This document shows positions 5 through 31,520 of a stretch of 36,175 nt of DNA, one piece after another (the stretch's first letter is position 1; each line of letters starts with the position of its first letter). The position numbers were made by a program, and so were the translations under genes. Source of the stretch: Gammaproteobacteria bacterium (GTDB lineage: Bacteria > Pseudomonadota > Gammaproteobacteria > Xanthomonadales > Xanthomonadaceae); NCBI GenBank assembly GCA_025356635.1, contig JANXRY010000007.1, positions 1 to 36,175 of the forward strand, given 5' to 3'. Below the pieces are notes generated by a model that was given only the letters and a program-made list of their open reading frames with translations, searched no databases and was not told where the DNA came from.

Positions 5-81
5 GGCTATGTAGCTCAGCCGGTTAGAGCGTGGCACTCATAATGCCGAGGTCGGTGGTTCGAGTCCACCCATAGCCACCA
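5..81 (+). tRNA. tRNA-Met (anticodon CAU), elongator type
   Basis: The sequence folds as a complete cloverleaf. The 7-bp acceptor stem pairs GGCTATG (5-11) with CATAGCC (71-77), the anticodon CAT is at 39-41 in a CTCATAA loop, the TTCGAGT T-loop is present, and the CCA end is encoded (79-81). Overall similarity is to the E. coli elongator tRNA-Met rather than initiator tRNA (the first acceptor pair is matched). A CAU anticodon could also be the lysidine-modified tRNA-Ile2, but the body resembles Met. Confidence 0.93.
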
Positions 82-128
82 TCATGTCCGTGCAAGCGAG
101 CGCCACGGCCCGCGCTGCCCGGGCAGGG

Positions 129-142
129 CTGATCCAAGTCAA
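129..142 (+). promoter_or_regulatory. FNR/Anr/Dnr-like box, promoter of the ubiD-norCB-like operon
   Basis: CTGATCCAAGTCAA matches the FNR-family consensus TTGAT-N4-ATCAA with conservative changes. Its centre (135.5) lies exactly 41.5 nt before the ATG at 177, the class II activator position. A plausible -10 hexamer CAAACT lies at 165-170. If transcription starts at the class II position the mRNA begins at the start codon. This is inferred from sequence only, but five similar boxes occur in the next 11 kb. Confidence 0.65.
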
Positions 143-176
143 GGCGGTTGCGCCTTTGCATGCGCAAACTGCCAGC

Positions 177-497
177 ATGGAACATGCTGCAACTTTCGAA
201 AGGGCCGCCCTGACCGGCTGGCTGTTGTGGCAATGGTATCCGCGCGGCAAGGCCATGCCAGCGCTCCTGCGCGTGCTGGAACTGGGTCGGATCGCCGGCC
301 TCACGTTCGTCCTGGTGCAGCTGGTGGCGATCCTGCGCATCGTGGCCGAATTGCGCCCCGATGCCATGGCCTGGCAAGCCGCCGCCGCACTGGCGTGGGT
401 GCTGGCGTTCCTGCCCTGGGCATTGCGCTCGACCTGGATCTACCTCACGCGCGGTCTGGCCGCTGCCGGGTTGGGCCGGGTGGGTCTGGCCGCCTGA
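177..497 (+). CDS. small two-helix membrane protein, first gene of the operon
   Basis: I do not recognise this 106-residue protein. It has two hydrophobic segments (about residues 37-56 and 66-90), a basic, aromatic N-terminal part (WLLWQWYPRGK) and a short glycine/alanine-rich tail, so it is most likely an inner-membrane protein. An ATG at 84 would add 31 residues, but the FNR-like box at 129-142 would then lie inside the gene; placing the start at 177 puts the box at -41.5. It ends 8 nt before ubiD and is followed by the cytochrome genes, so it is probably co-transcribed with them. It could be a small accessory subunit of the oxidase-like complex or a helper of quinone synthesis. Both ideas come from context alone. 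Confidence 0.6.
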   Translation: MEHAATFERAALTGWLLWQWYPRGKAMPALLRVLELGRIAGLTFVLVQLVAILRIVAELRPDAMAWQAAAALAWVLAFLPWALRSTWIYLTRGLAAAGLGRVGLAA

Positions 498-505
498 GCA
501 GGCGC

Positions 506-1993
506 ATGGCCTTCCACGATCTGCGCGCGTTCTTGCGGCACCTGGAGTCCAACCGCGCCTTACAGCGCGTCGCCGATCCGATCGATCCGGATCTCGAAAG
601 CACTGCGCTGTGCCAACACGTGTTGCAAGCACAAGGGCCGGCTCTGCTGATCGAAAACCCGGTGGGTTCCAAGCACGCCTTGCTGGGCAATCTGTTCGGG
701 CATCGCGATCGCATCGAAGCCGCGCTGGCCGGTCGGCCGCTGGCTTCGCTGCGCGAATTGGGCGAATTGCTGGCGGCGATCAAGGAGCCGCGTTGGCCCG
801 GCAATCTGCGTGATGCGCTCGCGCAGTGGCCGCAGTTGGCGCAGCTGGCGCATGTCGCGCCGCGTCAAGTCGATGCCGCGCCGTTCCAGCACGAGGTGCT
901 GCAGGGCGACGATGTGGATCTGACGCGACTTCCGATCCAGCGCTGTTGGCCCGGCGATGTGGATCGACTGATCACTTTCGGCCTGGTGGTGACGCGCGGC
1001 ACCCGACAGCCGCGCCAGAACGTGGCGGTCTATCGACAACAACCGGTCGCTGGCAATCGCGTGATCATGCGTTGGCTGCCGCATCGCGGCGGCGCACTCG
1101 ACTACGCCGATTGGCAGCGCACGCATCCGGATCGTCCGTTCCCGGTGGTCGTCGCCATCGGTGCCGACCCGGCCACGCTGCTCGCAGCGGTCGCGCCGGT
1201 GCCCGATAGCTTGTCCGAGTTCGAGTTCGCGGGCTTGTTGCGCGGCGAACGCACGCGCGTCTGGCGCAGCGGGCTGACCGGCCTGGACGTGCCGGCCGGC
1301 GCCGAGATCGTGCTGGAAGGTTTCATCCATCCGGGCGATACCGCGCTCGAAGGCCCGTTCGGCGACCACACCGGCTACTACAACGCCCAGGATCGCTTTC
1401 CGGTGCTGACCATCGAGCGCATGTCGTTGCGCGCGGATGCCATCTACCACGGCAGCTACATGGGACGCGCGCCGCACGACGAGCCGTCGGTGCTGGCGCT
1501 GGCGCTGAACGAGCTGTTCGTGCCGATCCTGCGCAAGATATTCCCGGAGATCGTCGATTTCTACTTGCCGCCCGAAGCCTGTTCGTACCGGGTCGCCGTG
1601 GTCAGCATCCGCAAACAATATCCGGGCCATGCGCGGCGGATCATGATGGGCATCTGGTCCTACCTGCGCCAGTTCACCTACACCAAGTTCGTGATCGTCA
1701 CCGACGAGGACATCGACGTGCGCGACTGGCGGCAGGTGATCTGGGCGATCGCCACGCGGGTCGATCCGGCCCGCGACAGCCTACTGATCGAGCGCACGCC
1801 CATCGACTATCTCGACTTTTCCAGTCCCGAACCCGAACTCGGCTCGAAACTCGGGCTGGACGCGACCCGCAAGCTGCCCGGTGAAACGACGCGCGCCTGG
1901 AGCGAGCCGATCGTGCCCGACCCGACCATCGCGCGTCGGGTCGAACAGTTGTGGGAACGTCTCGACAAAACGGGGGTACGCGGGACCACATGA
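506..1993 (+). CDS. ubiD: 4-hydroxy-3-polyprenylbenzoate decarboxylase UbiD
   Basis: This 495-residue protein matches the UbiD family in length (E. coli UbiD 497) and in sequence from the N-terminal MAFHDLRAFL to the C-terminal part. The signature EGPFGDHTGYY at residues 282-292 belongs to the prenylated-FMN active site, and the family-typical SYMGRAPHDEPS and a well conserved metal/prFMN-binding region are present. UbiD removes the carboxyl group of polyprenyl-4-hydroxybenzoate in ubiquinone synthesis, using prenyl-FMN made by UbiX, which is not in this window. The start at 506 follows the upstream gene by 8 nt. Its stop overlaps the next start (ATGA), which indicates translational coupling to the cytochrome c gene. 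Its position behind an FNR-like box suggests that this copy serves oxygen-poor growth. Whether the genome has a second UbiD cannot be seen here. Confidence 0.93.
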   Translation: MAFHDLRAFLRHLESNRALQRVADPIDPDLESTALCQHVLQAQGPALLIENPVGSKHALLGNLFGHRDRIEAALAGRPLASLRELGELLAAIKEPRWPGNLRDALAQWPQLAQLAHVAPRQVDAAPFQHEVLQGDDVDLTRLPIQRCWPGDVDRLITFGLVVTRGTRQPRQNVAVYRQQPVAGNRVIMRWLPHRGGALDYADWQRTHPDRPFPVVVAIGADPATLLAAVAPVPDSLSEFEFAGLLRGERTRVWRSGLTGLDVPAGAEIVLEGFIHPGDTALEGPFGDHTGYYNAQDRFPVLTIERMSLRADAIYHGSYMGRAPHDEPSVLALALNELFVPILRKIFPEIVDFYLPPEACSYRVAVVSIRKQYPGHARRIMMGIWSYLRQFTYTKFVIVTDEDIDVRDWRQVIWAIATRVDPARDSLLIERTPIDYLDFSSPEPELGSKLGLDATRKLPGETTRAWSEPIVPDPTIARRVEQLWERLDKTGVRGTT

Positions 1994-2775
1994 GCGGATG
2001 GCGATGGCCGGCATTCCTCGTGGTCGCGGCTTGCTTCGTCGCGCAGGCCACCAGCGTTTGGCTCGATCTTGGCCCGCGCCCGGGGTCGACCGTGGCTATC
2101 TCGCCATTGGCGCGCCAAGGCCAGGCGTTGTTCCGCAACCACGGCTGCCAGAGTTGCCACGCGTTGTACGGAATGGGCGGTTTCCTGGGCCCGGACCTGA
2201 CCAATGCCGCCCGCCGCGTGCCGCCGGGGCGCTACGCGCAACTGCTGCAGGAAGGCGCAGGACCGATGCCAGCCTACCGCCTCAGCGCAGACGAGCGTGC
2301 GGCGTTGTGGGCCTATCTGCAAGCCGTCGATGCCACCGGCCAGGGCACGCCGGTCGCGCCGCCGGGCGATGCCGGCCCTGTGTTCGCGACCGCCGTGCAA
2401 CGCTGGCGAATCCATGGCGGCGAATTGCCCGACGATGCGGCTGCCGGCGCTCGCGTCGTGGCCACCGGGCCGTGCGGCGCGTGCCATCGCAGCTTTGCCG
2501 TGGATCCGCTGATGCGCGCGCCCGACCTGAGCCTGGCCTTGGCGCATCTGGACGAGCGGCAAGTGCGGCATGTGCTGGCCGACGGTCGTGGCACGATGCC
2601 GCCGATGGCGCTGGACGCACGGCAAACCGGGCAAGTGTTGGCGTTCCTGCGCTGGCTGGCGGCGAATCGTGATGAACTGGCACCGCAGCGGCCGGCAACC
2701 CCGACAACCTTGCCGTGGTTCGCCTACCCGGCAACGAACGATCGCGACAACCCCGTCTCGGAATCCAGGCAGTGA
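1990..2775 (+). CDS. membrane-anchored di-heme cytochrome c, NorC-like
   Basis: This 261-residue protein has an N-terminal signal anchor (about residues 6-22) and two haem c sites, CQSCH at 53-57 and CGACH at 162-166. Likely axial methionines are M93 (GPMPAY) and M203 or M206 (GTMPPM). The first domain resembles NorC of cNOR around the haem: a CxxCH followed by a short LYGMGGFLGPDLTN-type stretch, then a MP-containing ligand loop. NorC itself normally has one haem, so the second cytochrome domain is an addition. The protein probably sits on the periplasmic face and passes electrons from soluble donors to the catalytic subunit encoded next. The start overlaps the ubiD stop. Family placement is firm as a c-type cytochrome, and moderate as the NorC-equivalent partner of the following gene. 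Confidence 0.88.
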   Translation: MSGWRWPAFLVVAACFVAQATSVWLDLGPRPGSTVAISPLARQGQALFRNHGCQSCHALYGMGGFLGPDLTNAARRVPPGRYAQLLQEGAGPMPAYRLSADERAALWAYLQAVDATGQGTPVAPPGDAGPVFATAVQRWRIHGGELPDDAAAGARVVATGPCGACHRSFAVDPLMRAPDLSLALAHLDERQVRHVLADGRGTMPPMALDARQTGQVLAFLRWLAANRDELAPQRPATPTTLPWFAYPATNDRDNPVSESRQ

Positions 2776-2786
2776 CCGCTCCGACA

Positions 2787-4166
2787 ATGCGCATGGACGA
2801 AAACGCACAGGCACAGACACTGGCCTGCGGCCGTGCCGTCGCCCGCGATTTCCTGCGCTCTGCGGCGTTCCTGCTGTTGGCCTGCGTCGGCTTCGGGCTG
2901 CTGGTGGCGCTGTACTACACGCCATTGGCGCCACGCATGAATGCGCTGGGGCTGCGGTTGTACTTGCTGCGGCCGCTGCACACTGGTGCCGCGCTCGGCT
3001 GGATCTACTTCGCCGGCATGGCAATGGCGCACCGTTGGCTGTTCGAACACATGGCCGCCGGCCAGGCGCCGACGCTACTCCGTCAAGTGGCGTTTCGCGC
3101 CCGCGTGCAACGATGGTTGTGGCTGGGCAGTGCGCTGGTGGCCGCCGTGGCTTATGCGAGCGGCCACACCACCGGCCGCGAATACCTGGAGTATCCGCCG
3201 TGGCTGGCATTACCGATCCTCGCCGGCTGGCTGTTGTTCGCACTGAATTTCGCGCAGGTCACGCGATTCCGCCTCGGCGAACTGCCGGTGCATGCGTGGA
3301 TGTGGGGCACCAGCGCGGTGCTGTTCGTGATTGCGTTCGTCGAGGCGCATGTTTGGCTGCTTGATTGGCTACTGGCGCGGCCGGTGCGCGATCTGGCGAT
3401 CCAGTGGAAGGCGATGGGCTCGCTGGTCGGATCGTTCAACCTGCTGGTGTACGGTAGCGTCGCCTGGCTGGGCACGCGGCTGTGCGGCGACGATCGCTAC
3501 GCGCGCTCGCCGACCGCGTATGCGCTGTTCCTGATCGGCATCCTGAACTCGTTCACCAACTACGGCCACCATACCTACCACTTGCCGCAAGGCGAGACGA
3601 TGAAGTGGGTGTCGTTCGCGGTGAGCATGAGCGAGATCGTCATCTTCGCCAAGGTCGCGTGGGACTGCACCGGCCTCGGTCGCAGATGGGCGACTCGCGG
3701 CCGCTATCCACTCGTCGTCGCGTTGCTGGTCGCCACCACCACCTGGACCTGCCTGCAACTCGCGTTGGCGCTGCTGATCTCGATACCACCCCTGAACGTG
3801 TACGTGCACGGAACGCTGGCCATCGTCGCCCATTCGATGGGCACCCTGATCGGTATCGACACCATGGCGATGCTGGCGGTCGGGCTGTGGCTGACGCACG
3901 AACTTTCCGGCGAGAACCAGGCCGCCAGCGCACGCGGACTGGTGGCCGTGGTGGCGCTCAATGTCGGCCTGCTGATACTTTGGTGCAGCCTGCTGTGGGT
4001 CGGTCTCGGCGCTGGCATCCGCATGACGAGCACCGGTGTGTTGCCTTGGATCGGCGCTTATCCAGGCTGGCTCGGGTCGATGTTGCTGGCGGCAGGAGCG
4101 CTGATCGCCGCCGGCATAGCGTCCCTTGCGTGGCCGATGCTGCGCCGGCGTCGCGATAGCCCCTGA
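2787..4166 (+). CDS. divergent NorB-like haem-copper oxidase superfamily subunit I
   Basis: The protein is 459 residues with about 12 hydrophobic helices and is collinear with NorB of cNOR (landmarks H65 in LRPLHTG, GREYLE at 130-135, NYGHHTYH, VHGTLAIVAH). Compared with P. aeruginosa NorB recalled from memory, H65 matches low-spin haem ligand His60, H261/H262 match FeB ligands His258/His259, E283 matches Glu280 and H349 matches haem b3 ligand His347. Three key positions differ: M210 is at the FeB ligand His207, V214 at the active-site Glu211, and M351 at the low-spin haem ligand His349. The 54 residues from W207 to the GHH motif align without gaps. It is probably a membrane terminal reductase or oxidase fed by the preceding cytochrome, but classical NO reduction cannot be assumed. 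A GTG at 2772, overlapping the previous stop, is an alternative start. Confidence 0.85.
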   Translation: MRMDENAQAQTLACGRAVARDFLRSAAFLLLACVGFGLLVALYYTPLAPRMNALGLRLYLLRPLHTGAALGWIYFAGMAMAHRWLFEHMAAGQAPTLLRQVAFRARVQRWLWLGSALVAAVAYASGHTTGREYLEYPPWLALPILAGWLLFALNFAQVTRFRLGELPVHAWMWGTSAVLFVIAFVEAHVWLLDWLLARPVRDLAIQWKAMGSLVGSFNLLVYGSVAWLGTRLCGDDRYARSPTAYALFLIGILNSFTNYGHHTYHLPQGETMKWVSFAVSMSEIVIFAKVAWDCTGLGRRWATRGRYPLVVALLVATTTWTCLQLALALLISIPPLNVYVHGTLAIVAHSMGTLIGIDTMAMLAVGLWLTHELSGENQAASARGLVAVVALNVGLLILWCSLLWVGLGAGIRMTSTGVLPWIGAYPGWLGSMLLAAGALIAAGIASLAWPMLRRRRDSP

Positions 4167-5344: not shown

Positions 5345-5358
5345 CTGACTTGGATCAA
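5345..5358 (+). promoter_or_regulatory. FNR/Anr-like box and -10 element upstream of ubiU
   Basis: CTGACTTGGATCAA differs from TTGAC-N4-ATCAA only at the first base. With the centre at 5351.5 the class II start would be near 5393, and GAAAAT at 5381-5386 falls exactly at -12 to -7. The leader to the ATG at 5407 would be 14 nt. This is one of the better boxes in the window. Confidence 0.65.
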
Positions 5359-5406
5359 GGCGACCCCGACGGATCCGGCCGAAAATCCAGCCGACCAATT
5401 TCGGGA

Positions 5407-6411
5407 ATGACCATGCAACTGGTGTGCCCGGCCGGCAATCTGCCGGCGCTGATGACCGCCGTGGACAACGGCGCCGACGCGGTCTATGCCGGCTTCCGCG
5501 ACCAGACCAATGCCCGCGCGTTTCCCGGGCTGAATTTTTCCGAACAGGATTTGCGTCGCGGCATCGACTACGCGCGCGCGCGCGGCCGGCAGATGTATCT
5601 CGCACTCAACACGTATCCGGAAAGCGCGCGCCTGTGTGAATGGGAGCGGGCCGTGGACCTCGCCGCCGACCTCGGTGCCGACGCCATCATCGCAGCCGAA
5701 CTCGCGGTGCTCGACTACGCCGCGCGCCGCCACCCGTTGCTGCCGCGCCATCTGTCGGTGCAGGGGTCGGCGACCACGCAAGCCTCGTTGCGCTACTACC
5801 GCGAGCGTGTCGGTATCGCCCGGGCGGTGCTCCCCCGCGTGCTGTCGGTGCAACAGGTCGAACGCCTGTGCGCCGCTGCGCCGGTGCCGCTGGAAGTGTT
5901 CGCGTTCGGCAGCCTGTGCATCATGGTGGAGGGGCGCTGCCAGCTGTCGAGTTACGTCACCGGCGCCTCGCCCAACCGGCATGGCGTGTGCTCGCCAGCG
6001 CGCTTCGTGCGCTGGGAAGAACAGGCCGACGGCAGCCGTGCGGTGCGCTTGAACGGCGTCTTGATCGATCGTTACGCCGCCGGCGAGGCGGCCGGCTATC
6101 CGACCGTGTGCAAGGGTCGCTTCGAGGTGGGCGGCGAAGTGTTCCATGCCCTGGAAGAACCGACCAGCTTGAACACGCTCGAGTTGCTACCGCGATTGCA
6201 GCAAGCCGGCGTCGTCGCCTTGAAGATCGAAGGTCGCCAACGCGGCGCCGCGTACGTCGGCACGGTCGCGCGCGTCTGGCGACAAGCAATTGACGATCTG
6301 GCGCGCGCACCGGAGCGTTGGCAGCCGCGCAGCGACTGGCAGGCCGCGTTGTCGGCGCACGCCGAAGGCCACCAGACCACCCTCGGCCCCTATCACCGCG
6401 CCTGGCATTGA
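5407..6411 (+). CDS. ubiU: UbiU, O2-independent ubiquinone hydroxylation (peptidase U32 family)
   Basis: This 334-residue protein is closely similar along its whole length to E. coli UbiU (YhbU), starting at MQLVCPAGNLPAL and ending in TLGPYHRAWH. The four cysteines that hold the 4Fe-4S cluster in UbiU are present at C171, C178, C195 and C235 with nearly the E. coli spacing (169, 176, 193, 232). UbiU forms a complex with UbiV and hydroxylates ubiquinone precursors without oxygen. The downstream ubiV starts 2 nt after its stop. An ATG at 5413 is an equally good start and aligns with the E. coli N-terminus. An FNR-like box precedes it at 5345-5358. Confidence 0.95.
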   Translation: MTMQLVCPAGNLPALMTAVDNGADAVYAGFRDQTNARAFPGLNFSEQDLRRGIDYARARGRQMYLALNTYPESARLCEWERAVDLAADLGADAIIAAELAVLDYAARRHPLLPRHLSVQGSATTQASLRYYRERVGIARAVLPRVLSVQQVERLCAAAPVPLEVFAFGSLCIMVEGRCQLSSYVTGASPNRHGVCSPARFVRWEEQADGSRAVRLNGVLIDRYAAGEAAGYPTVCKGRFEVGGEVFHALEEPTSLNTLELLPRLQQAGVVALKIEGRQRGAAYVGTVARVWRQAIDDLARAPERWQPRSDWQAALSAHAEGHQTTLGPYHRAWH

Positions 6412-6413
6412 CC

Positions 6414-7292
6414 ATGAAACTCAGCCTCGGGCCCTTGCAGTACTTCTGGCCGCGCGGGCGCGTGCTGGCGTTTTATCGCGCCGCCATGGAGTGGCCGCTG
6501 GATACTATCTACCTCGGCGAGACCGTCTGCAGCAAACGCCGTGAGCTGCGCACGCGCGATTGGATCGCGCTCGCCGACGAGCTGGCCGCGAGCGGCAAAC
6601 AGATCGTGCTGTCGAGCCTGGCGTTGCTCGAAGCCGAATCCGAACTCGGTGCGCTGCAACGACTGATAGAGAACGGCCGCTTCCTGATCGAGGCCAACGA
6701 CATGTCGGCGGTGCAGTTGTGCCGCGAGCGCGGCCTGGCGTTCGTCGCGGGTCCCACGCTCAACGTCTACAACCATCGCGCGTTGCGTCTGTTGCTGGAA
6801 GACGGGCTGTGCCGGCTGGTGCTCGGTGTCGAACAGGGGCGCGATCTCGTGCACGACTTGCGCGCACATGCGCACGCAGACGGCATGACGCTGCCCGAGT
6901 TCGAAGCGATCGCCTGGGGTCGGTTGCCGTTGGCGTATTCGGCGCGCTGCTTCACGGCGCGCGCGCTGGATGTCGCCAAGGATCAATGCGGCTTCCGCTG
7001 CATCGAGCATCCGGACGGATTGCCGCTCGCCACGCGCGACGGTCAAGCCTTCCTGGTCATCAACGGTATTCAGATCCAAAGCCGAGACGTGTGCGATCTC
7101 GGCCCGGAAATCGCCGAGCTGCGCACTTTGAGTATCGATCTGTTGCGCCTGTATCCACAGGCCGAAGGCATGGAGCAGGTGGTCGCTCATTTCGCGCTCG
7201 CAATCCGCAGCTCGGCGCCGCCGCCGCGCCTGGGCGCGCGTAACGGTTACTGGCACGGCGAATCGGGCATGGACTTGCCGACCCTGCCCTAG
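6414..7292 (+). CDS. ubiV: UbiV, partner of UbiU in O2-independent hydroxylation
   Basis: The protein has 292 residues, the same length as E. coli UbiV (YhbV). Cysteines C39, C179, C192 and C196 match the four 4Fe-4S ligands of E. coli UbiV (39, 180, 193, 197). It belongs to the U32 family and works as a heterodimer with UbiU in anaerobic ubiquinone synthesis. The gene begins 2 nt after ubiU, so the two are surely co-transcribed. Its TAG stop (7290-7292) overlaps the TAG stop of the convergent nadB gene (complement of 7289-7291), so no terminator space exists between the two operons. Confidence 0.95.
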   Translation: MKLSLGPLQYFWPRGRVLAFYRAAMEWPLDTIYLGETVCSKRRELRTRDWIALADELAASGKQIVLSSLALLEAESELGALQRLIENGRFLIEANDMSAVQLCRERGLAFVAGPTLNVYNHRALRLLLEDGLCRLVLGVEQGRDLVHDLRAHAHADGMTLPEFEAIAWGRLPLAYSARCFTARALDVAKDQCGFRCIEHPDGLPLATRDGQAFLVINGIQIQSRDVCDLGPEIAELRTLSIDLLRLYPQAEGMEQVVAHFALAIRSSAPPPRLGARNGYWHGESGMDLPTLP

Positions 7293-9794: not shown

Positions 9795-10700
9795 TCAGCG
9801 CGGCTGGCGGTCGATTCGATGGGCGTCGCGCGCCGATTGCAGTAGGCCGGCGCCACGGCTCATCAGGACGCGCAAGCCCAGCGGCACGTCCTGCCATGGC
9901 AACTGATCGAGCAGATTGCGCGTCGTGAGACCCAGTTCGACGTCGCCGGTCAGCACCAGACGACGCTGGAAAAAAAGCGTGTCGGCATCCTCGCGACGAC
10001 TGGCCAGCAGCAGCAGATCGGTCGCCGAGCCCCTTACGGTCGCCTCCGCCGGTTCATCGGATGCGTTGACCTCCAGCCTGCGGTCACGCACCTGCACGAC
10101 CCAGCGCAAGCCCAGATCCTCGACTTCGATCCCGATCCGCCGGTTTGCCACCAGATCCAGGTGGCCCTGGGCCAATGGCGCCGCGAGCACGTGGCGCATC
10201 GCGGCCTGAAGACACTGGGCTTGCCACGGCGCGGGCACCCGGCGTAACCATGGGCGCCAGCGCTTTGGTGGCGGCAGCCAGCGCAGCCAGGCGGAGGCCG
10301 ACGGAAAGGACGGAGACGGGGTCATGGAGGGCGCCAGCATGGCGCCAACCCGGTCGTCCCTGCCCTGATCCAGATCAGTCCGCGGGCACGCCTCGGTACT
10401 CGCGCCTGGATTCAGCCCTTGCTGCCGATGGGCGTCGGCGATCAGGGCAGCCATCAGGCGCTCGCTGCTGGCTGGCGGCACGCCCAGACGCTGGCCGATC
10501 CAGCGGGCGCGATCGCAGACCGCCTGTTCGCGGTCGAGGTTTCGACCGCCGTGACCTGCCCGTTGCTTGATCTCCGCTGCCAGCGAAACCAGGCGCCGGC
10601 GGCCGGCGAACAGGAACAGCAGGCCGTCGTCGACGCCGTCGATCAAGCTGCGAACACCGCCTAGCGCGGCCTGCGATGCCATGGGAAGGGAGTTCGGCAT
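9795..10700 (-). CDS. ubiT: chorismate mutase (AroQ) fused to UbiT (SCP2 domain)
   Basis: One uninterrupted reading frame joins two domains. Residues 15-95 are an AroQ chorismate mutase; at a constant offset from the E. coli domain, R17, R34, K45, R57, E58 and Q94 match R11, R28, K39, R51, E52 and Q88, while D48 is N54 and S84 is A90. Residues from about 126 to 301 resemble UbiT (YhbT): a tryptophan/proline-rich amphipathic start, then an SCP2 lipid-binding domain ending in DVELGLTTRNLLDQLPW. UbiT is the accessory lipid-binding protein of the UbiU-UbiV pathway. An FNR-like box lies 34-51 nt before the ATG chosen here (an ATG at 10709 is an alternative), and another inside the linker could drive UbiT alone from the ATG at 10325. 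The fused mutase could supply prephenate to UbiU-UbiV; that is inference. Confidence 0.87.
   Translation of the reverse strand: MPNSLPMASQAALGGVRSLIDGVDDGLLFLFAGRRRLVSLAAEIKQRAGHGGRNLDREQAVCDRARWIGQRLGVPPASSERLMAALIADAHRQQGLNPGASTEACPRTDLDQGRDDRVGAMLAPSMTPSPSFPSASAWLRWLPPPKRWRPWLRRVPAPWQAQCLQAAMRHVLAAPLAQGHLDLVANRRIGIEVEDLGLRWVVQVRDRRLEVNASDEPAEATVRGSATDLLLLASRREDADTLFFQRRLVLTGDVELGLTTRNLLDQLPWQDVPLGLRVLMSRGAGLLQSARDAHRIDRQPR
10365..10378 (-). promoter_or_regulatory. FNR/Anr-like box inside the cm-ubiT reading frame
   Basis: CTGATCCAGATCAG is a symmetric 14-mer with both half-sites (CTGAT/ATCAG) of the FNR pattern. It encodes part of the linker between the mutase and UbiT domains. On the minus strand the class II start would be about 10330, with CATGCT (complement of 10336-10341) near the -10 position and the ATG of the UbiT domain at 10325. 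It may therefore be an internal promoter for UbiT without the mutase. Confidence 0.5.
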
Positions 10701-10735
10701 GGCCGGCATTGCACACCGGCCCTAATCGACCCGCA

Positions 10736-29212: not shown

Positions 29213-31520
<2,308 letters not shown>

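Follow-up and report, generated by a model that had tools for sequence, protein, structure and literature searches.

The window, as we call the whole 36,175-nt stretch of contig JANXRY010000007.1 that was analysed, contains an intact open reading frame for a COX1-type protein of 459 amino acids, with the same boundaries as in the initial annotation. The COX1 domain (PF00115) is recognized with an E-value of 4.7e-21 (75.6 bits, against a cut-off of 34.8), and the match starts at residue 19, the fused N-terminal cytochrome-like domain of the qNOR type being absent. The gene is preceded, at a distance of 11 bp, by that of a c-type cytochrome with two CXXCH motifs, the first half of which matches NorC of cNOR loci in blastp searches of a small custom set, with E-values down to 2.8e-7. 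We set the start of the cytochrome gene at the ATG that overlaps the stop codon of an upstream gene for a UbiD-family decarboxylase. Downstream of the COX1-type gene are genes for a TyrA-like protein and then for UbiU and UbiV (Table 1).

Table 1. Genes, sites and other features of the window discussed in the text
Feature	Position	Strand	Basis
tRNA-Met	5-81		
NnrS-like remnant, C-terminal	84-497	+	48% over 60 aa, E 6.6e-5 (small set)
UbiD-family decarboxylase gene; stop overlaps cytochrome start (ATGA)	497-1993	+	TIGR00148 over cut-off
c-type cytochrome, two CXXCH, NorC-like first half	1990-2775	+	Cytochrome_CBB3 E 2.4e-17; blastp to NorC
Cytochrome CXXCH motifs	CQSCH 2146-2160; CGACH 2473-2487	+	sequence
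Haem-copper-superfamily subunit I, NOR-branch clade, 4/6 superfamily histidines	2787-4166	+	PF00115, Foldseek, tree
H65, helix II low-spin haem ligand, kept	2979-2981	+	HMM alignment; 6/6 members
M210-G211, place of lost helix-VI FeB/CuB histidine	3414-3419	+	G211 6/6; residue 210 Met 3, Tyr 3
V214-G215, place of lost FeB ligand Glu211	3426-3431	+	HMM and member alignments
H261-H262, two retained FeB/CuB histidines	3567-3572	+	HMM alignment; 6/6 members
E283, NOR-type Glu280 (Leu in cbb3 references)	3633-3635	+	invariant 6/6
H349, proximal ligand of high-spin haem, kept	3831-3833	+	HMM alignment; 6/6 members
M351, replacing second low-spin haem histidine	3837-3839	+	ungapped, top posterior; Met 6/6
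ubiU and ubiV, O2-independent ubiquinone synthesis	5350-7292	+	NF047963, NF047965 over cut-off
SCP2 (UbiT-like) domain behind chorismate mutase domain, single frame	9795-10709	-	

Another species of the same genus (L036) has tyrA, ubiU, ubiV, nadA and a UbiT-like gene grouped in its genome, but no cytochrome/COX1 pair with them; the contig therefore looks native, a contaminant being rejected on this synteny, and the pair itself appears to be accessory. Near ubiU/ubiV and the TyrA-like protein, whose chorismate mutase domain is C-terminal, the window also encodes the fusion of a chorismate mutase domain and an SCP2 domain. Prephenate is presumably used by UbiUV-type enzymes, and this fusion may supply it. 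At the contig end, directly after the tRNA gene, lies the NnrS-like remnant, for which a Pfam scan gave no match at 0.001. Searches for FNR-type boxes yielded a single 1-mismatch site in the window, at 30721, far from the gene pair (a number reached in 35 of 100 shuffles), and two 1-mismatch sites at the locus of a close relative, L001 (reached in 1 of 200 shuffles), one inside the gene and the other downstream; the 2-mismatch sites at position 129 of the window and 5083 of L001 are weak.

Haem and metal ligands

The ligands were mapped with an HMM of 25 references (15 labelled as cNOR, 4 qNOR and 6 cbb3), with the numbering of Pseudomonas aeruginosa NorB counted on the alignment of 3o0r_B. 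The retained ligands proposed in the initial annotation were recovered with top posterior, H65, H261, H262, H349 and E283 falling at H60, H258, H259, H347 and E280 of cNOR, and the same holds for the substitution in helix X, where M351 occupies the position of cNOR H349, a histidine in 25 of 25 references and a methionine in all six members of the clade described below. The His/Met low-spin haem thus stands as a prediction, with both H65 and M351 present in each of the six proteins. The Glu pair at 132/135 is likewise kept at top posterior in the window protein. Invariant across the six members are H65, E132, E135, Q206, W207, G211, G215, N218, H261, H262, E283, H341, H349 and M351. Six conserved histidines have been called a signature of the haem-copper superfamily (PMC3413370); four of these are kept in all six members, and both missing ones are present in 25 of 25 references. 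In contrast, H265, which had been suggested as a compensating ligand, is absent from the three distant members and was discarded as such for the clade.

Helix VI lacks a histidine altogether: none is found from residue 189 to 232 of the window protein or over the corresponding part of the other five members, so that the loss of the ligand is clear, although its replacement is not. Of the FeB pair of cNOR, Glu211 and Glu280, only the latter is present in the clade. The initial annotation had placed V214 at Glu211 and M210 at His207, relying on a gapless alignment from W207 to the GHH motif. The loss of Glu211 was upheld, its place being taken by V214 or G215 (Val or Gly), but the position of M210 was not, because most HMM alignments put the invariant Gly211 in the His column. 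The gapless alignment does give the right spacing to the HH pair; however, other registers compete with it, and it is therefore not decisive. In all six members, residue 210 lies 51 residues before H261, as His207 lies before His258 in cNOR and as in qNOR; with Gly211 as the His position, the spacing is 50 residues, as in cbb3.

Comparison of the two registers along helix VI gave divided results. For the upstream half of the helix in the three window-type proteins (the window protein and its two close relatives), the Gly211 register outscored that of residue 210 against cNOR (6.9 versus -3.9) and cbb3 (11.8 versus 0.6), with a near tie against qNOR (-0.8 versus 0.8). Over residues +1 to +12 of the same proteins, the residue 210 register was better against cNOR (0.2 versus -3.7) and qNOR (3.8 versus -12.0) and the Gly211 register against cbb3 (1.3 versus -12.0), and over residues +13 to +30, residue 210 was favoured against all three. 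In the window protein, the upstream anchors D202 and W207 favour G211 at the His position, and residues further downstream favour residue 210. With hmmalign, Gly211 fell in the His column for all three window-type proteins under the cNOR, c+qNOR, cbb3, cbb3+c+qNOR and all-HCO models, and under the qNOR model, the column was empty for two of the three. For the distant members, the cbb3 model placed Gly there in three of three, the combined model Tyr (residue 210) in two and Gly in one, and the cNOR model Gln, Tyr and Gly, two of these with low posterior. Profile alignment with hhalign chose Gly211 against cbb3; against cNOR, it settled on a third register, in which helix VI is interrupted by a gap of eight residues. 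An AlphaFold model made from three sequences (pLDDT 63.9, falling below 50 in stretches of helices VI, VII and X) is too poor to tell the helix-VI register.

Given that residue 210 is Met in the three close members and Tyr in the three distant ones, a methionine at FeB could characterize the close group at most. The metal site of two His and one Met that had been proposed accordingly remains unproven, Gly211 fitting at least as well in the window protein.

Distribution and phylogenetic position

Six peptides of the protein were scanned against the GTDB r220 contig collection, an approach that reaches close relatives only, and two homologues from soil MAGs emerged, L001 (72% identity) and L002 (69%). 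Three distant relatives, L102, L100 and L104 (31%, 29% and 32% identity to the window protein, respectively), were found among 783 sampled genomes. In a set of 61 genomes searched for relatives, only its own encodes the protein; the remaining 60 include 26 of the same genus. Searches of sampled genomes, in samples that overlap, were made with a three-row profile of the window-type proteins. These returned the gene itself alone in the class sample (1/369, at 1e-8), the genes of L001 and L002 in the family of L001's genome (2/198), four hits in the order of the window genome (4/398: its own, one coinciding in place with L001's genome, which is labelled with the same family, and two distant members) and one in a sample from another class of this phylum (1/385). 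In the phylum sample, 14 of 398 genomes had a match at 1e-3, comprising the gene itself and 13 weak matches, of which 10 have an ordinary NorB frame with the HLWVE motif and one (L021) is, by eye, a piece of the cbb3 type, with L020 and L022 left unassigned in this count. This other class, the one sampled with 385 genomes, is probably Alphaproteobacteria, as inferred from the centring of the sample on a genome with a cNOR nearest to those of rhizobia.

All six members keep H65, H261, H262, H349 and E283, carry M351 and lack the FeB/CuB histidine of helix VI, and dN/dS among the three close genes is 0.24-0.34. A ligand set common to six genes from two classes, together with this ratio, points to more than chance; because distant relatives show the change as well, this looks like a real, little-known lineage and not a broken gene, and a pseudogene is ruled out by the conservation and the dN/dS. 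No NCBIfam model reached its cut-off for any of the six proteins. A sequence search of the PDB with the window protein gave no match at E 1, and tblastn against plasmids gave none at 1e-5, the best plasmid matches among those listed being of the NorB type with about 25% identity. Scans of viral contigs for the clade found none. Separately, an IMG/VR contig (L052/L057) encodes a cNOR-type NorB beside a cytochrome c with two CXXCH motifs and may be a mis-sorted bacterial contig. Among titles and abstract openings, with subscription papers mostly outside the search, we found no description of a clade with this ligand set. Some Flavobacteria (Bacteroidota) proteins may, however, carry the same helix-VI and helix-X motifs, which those of the distant members resemble; the clade may thus have more members and may already have appeared in the literature.

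In a maximum likelihood tree of 32 rows, midpoint-rooted and built without eNOR, gNOR, bNOR or NOD references, the six members form one clade (100/99), cNOR and qNOR group together without them (100/100), and the clade joins the c+qNOR group with 97/93 support. The tree has long branches, and the three window-type rows are of odd composition. Holding the clade with cNOR was rejected both in this tree (p-AU 0.00025) and in a first, smaller one (p-AU 0.0151), in which the position of the clade was weak and which alone included two proteins that we take to be sNOR-like; holding it with cbb3 was not rejected at 0.05 in the larger tree (p-AU 0.0565). Profile comparison was in line with the placement beside c+qNOR, giving 4e-11 against cNOR and 3e-7 against cbb3. 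The best current reading, which is not proof, is that the clade is a separate lineage, sister to cNOR plus qNOR on the present sampling; the cbb3 constraint, the midpoint root and the long branches count against it. The subunit was originally described as NorB-like: the likeness to NORs, the altered metal site and the predicted His/Met haem hold, but membership in NorB is rejected by the constrained tree. The initial annotation named no described clade with this ligand set, in line with the position of the protein outside the cNOR and qNOR references in a superfamily tree with c, q and cbb3 members. In the larger tree, a protein labelled as cNOR (L085) fell beside qNOR; this NOR-type protein of genome G805 (L085/L097) carries HYWVEG in its helix VI and is extended at the C-terminus.

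Genome context

Five of the six loci carry a cytochrome c gene just upstream, the sixth (L002) being cut by the contig end. The NorC likeness of these cytochromes was recognized by blastp for two of the five and by motif for the other three; L102, L100 and L104 each have a cytochrome with a single CXXCH. The window genome encodes aa3-type and cbb3-type subunits, nirK on another contig and an SCO-linked pair that is presumably sNOR-like. On contig C19 of this genome, a second COX1-like protein without the metal-site HH pair (L007, 1417-2850, minus strand) adjoins an SCO-like gene and a full COX1 protein. The genome of L001 has aa3, cbb3 and a cNOR-type gene in addition to the clade gene, with no nirK over the cut-off, and that of L002 has aa3, cbb3 and a NOR-type gene falling beside qNOR. 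At the L002 locus, hemN, nnrS, nirK and an azurin-type gene all lie about 11 kb or less from the clade gene. Each of the three close genomes carries a further candidate NOR. Of the NorQ/NorD assembly genes, NorQ was sought, with PF08406, which matched in none of these three genomes, a weak result since one of them holds a cNOR-type gene. Two of the distant loci lie near molybdenum enzymes according to a Pfam scan, and nothing telling was recognized by eye at the third. No nitrogen genes were recognized around L001 or, in an inspection by eye with two of the neighbouring genes also Pfam-scanned, around the three distant members.

Possible function

Our leading, although tentative, reading of these sequences is that the protein is the catalytic subunit of a separate haem-copper lineage, a two-subunit reductase fed by cytochrome c, with nitric oxide as the most likely substrate and a metal site of two His and one carboxylate. 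The NorC-like cytochrome c would be its partner, and electrons would pass from it to a low-spin haem b (His65/Met351), the potential of which should be higher than that of a bis-His haem, and on to a high-spin haem b3 (His349). Any metal opposite haem b3 would have His261 and His262 as ligands, perhaps together with Glu283; such a two-His-one-carboxylate site would stand in for one made of three His and Glu211. Nitric oxide might be turned over in respiration or detoxification, and O2 or another small ligand is possible.

The NO-directed reading draws on the joining of the clade with c+qNOR, the Glu280 kept in all six members and the upstream cytochrome c. The context of the L002 genes listed above, the nirK of the window genome and the NnrS-like remnant at the start of the window point in the same direction, and the invariant residues and low dN/dS argue for a working protein. 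Against it stand the other candidate NOR in each close genome and the lack of recognized nitrogen genes at the distant loci and L001; moreover, with two superfamily histidines and Glu211 gone, NO chemistry of the cNOR kind is not assured.

The clade resembles cNOR in its NorC-like partner, Glu280, the HH pair, the proximal His and the Glu pair at E135/E138, but lacks the helix-VI His and Glu211, has Met for the second low-spin His and falls outside the c+qNOR clade. With qNOR, it shares Glu280, the HH pair and the NOR branch, and differs in the same ligand losses and in the missing fused N-terminal domain. The eNOR, sNOR, gNOR and bNOR are divergent NORs told apart by an active-site residue (PMC8756737, Table A4), described or proposed as relatives of B-family oxidases (PMC11388526), and the second subunits of sNOR, gNOR and eNOR are cupredoxins (PMC8756737); these descriptions, rather than full ligand sets, would set the clade apart from them.

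Several alternatives have to be weighed against the two-His-one-carboxylate site. Residue 210, Met here and Tyr in the distant members, might hold the helix-VI ligand place, resulting in a His2Met or His2Tyr Cu/Fe site. Its constant spacing to the HH pair, a better score over residues +1 to +12 when all six members are taken together (4.5 versus -5.4 against cNOR; 1.2 versus -14.0 against qNOR) and the Tyr in the His column of two distant members under the combined HMM (posterior 0.5-0.6) speak for such a ligand, but the upstream half of helix VI, compared with cNOR and cbb3, and the HMM alignments of the window-type proteins favour Gly211, and Met occurs in just three of six members; on balance, we consider it rather unlikely. 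A non-catalytic haem protein, that is, an electron conduit or a sensor or buffer of NO or O2 built on a haem-copper scaffold with a dismantled binuclear centre, would fit the retention of only two of the three CuB/FeB histidines and the disappearance of Glu211, and an ORF that looks Lrp/AsnC-like by eye lies just upstream in one of the six loci (L103). Nevertheless, H261, H262, E283 and H349 are invariant in all six members across two classes, which is unexpected for an idle centre and makes this alternative unlikely.

A relationship to the cbb3 oxygen reductases, with changed CuB ligation, would accord with the RPLHT motif shared with CcoN, the 50-residue spacing if Gly211 is the His position, the match of the distant members to the ccoN model, albeit far under its cut-off, and the tree constraint that was not rejected. 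Foldseek, too, ranked cbb3 CcoN first and NorB eighth, a suggestion of shared fold qualified by the weak model from which it was obtained. We nonetheless see little room for a cbb3-related enzyme: the helix-VI His is absent, Glu280 is kept as in NORs, and there is no Tyr at the place of the helix-VII cross-link Tyr of cbb3, 4-7 residues ahead of the HH pair. In addition, no CcoO or CcoP neighbour was recognized next to the gene in the window (the neighbours being ubiD, cytochrome c and tyrA) or, by eye, at the distant loci, and the window genome already has aa3-type and cbb3-type subunits. By analogy, chemistry like that of NO dismutases could also be imagined, given that the putative NODs have lost one metal histidine, replaced by Asn, and have a nearby catalytic Glu changed to Gln (PMC3413370). 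This appears very improbable: the changed residues are different ones, and the NODs have been described as related to qNOR, lacking a proper quinol site and apparently incapable of taking up electrons from outside (PMC3413370), whereas the clade has a predicted His/Met haem and keeps cytochrome c as its partner.

Returning to a catalytic role, we regard as possible, if doubtful, the more specific proposal read from these sequences, namely, that haem b3 and a metal held by two His and one carboxylate (or by a His2Met or His2Tyr set), fed by cytochrome c through a high-potential His/Met haem, turn over NO or another small molecule. If true, such a metal centre would break the six-histidine rule of the superfamily and still turn over a small molecule. 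Haem-copper oxidases and NO reductases are commonly recognized by their six histidines, and here a conserved lineage keeps four; with no NCBIfam model at cut-off, it would go unnamed or misnamed. As a natural counterpart to engineered FeB mutants, the lineage would help to show which ligands are required for the chemistry of NO or O2.
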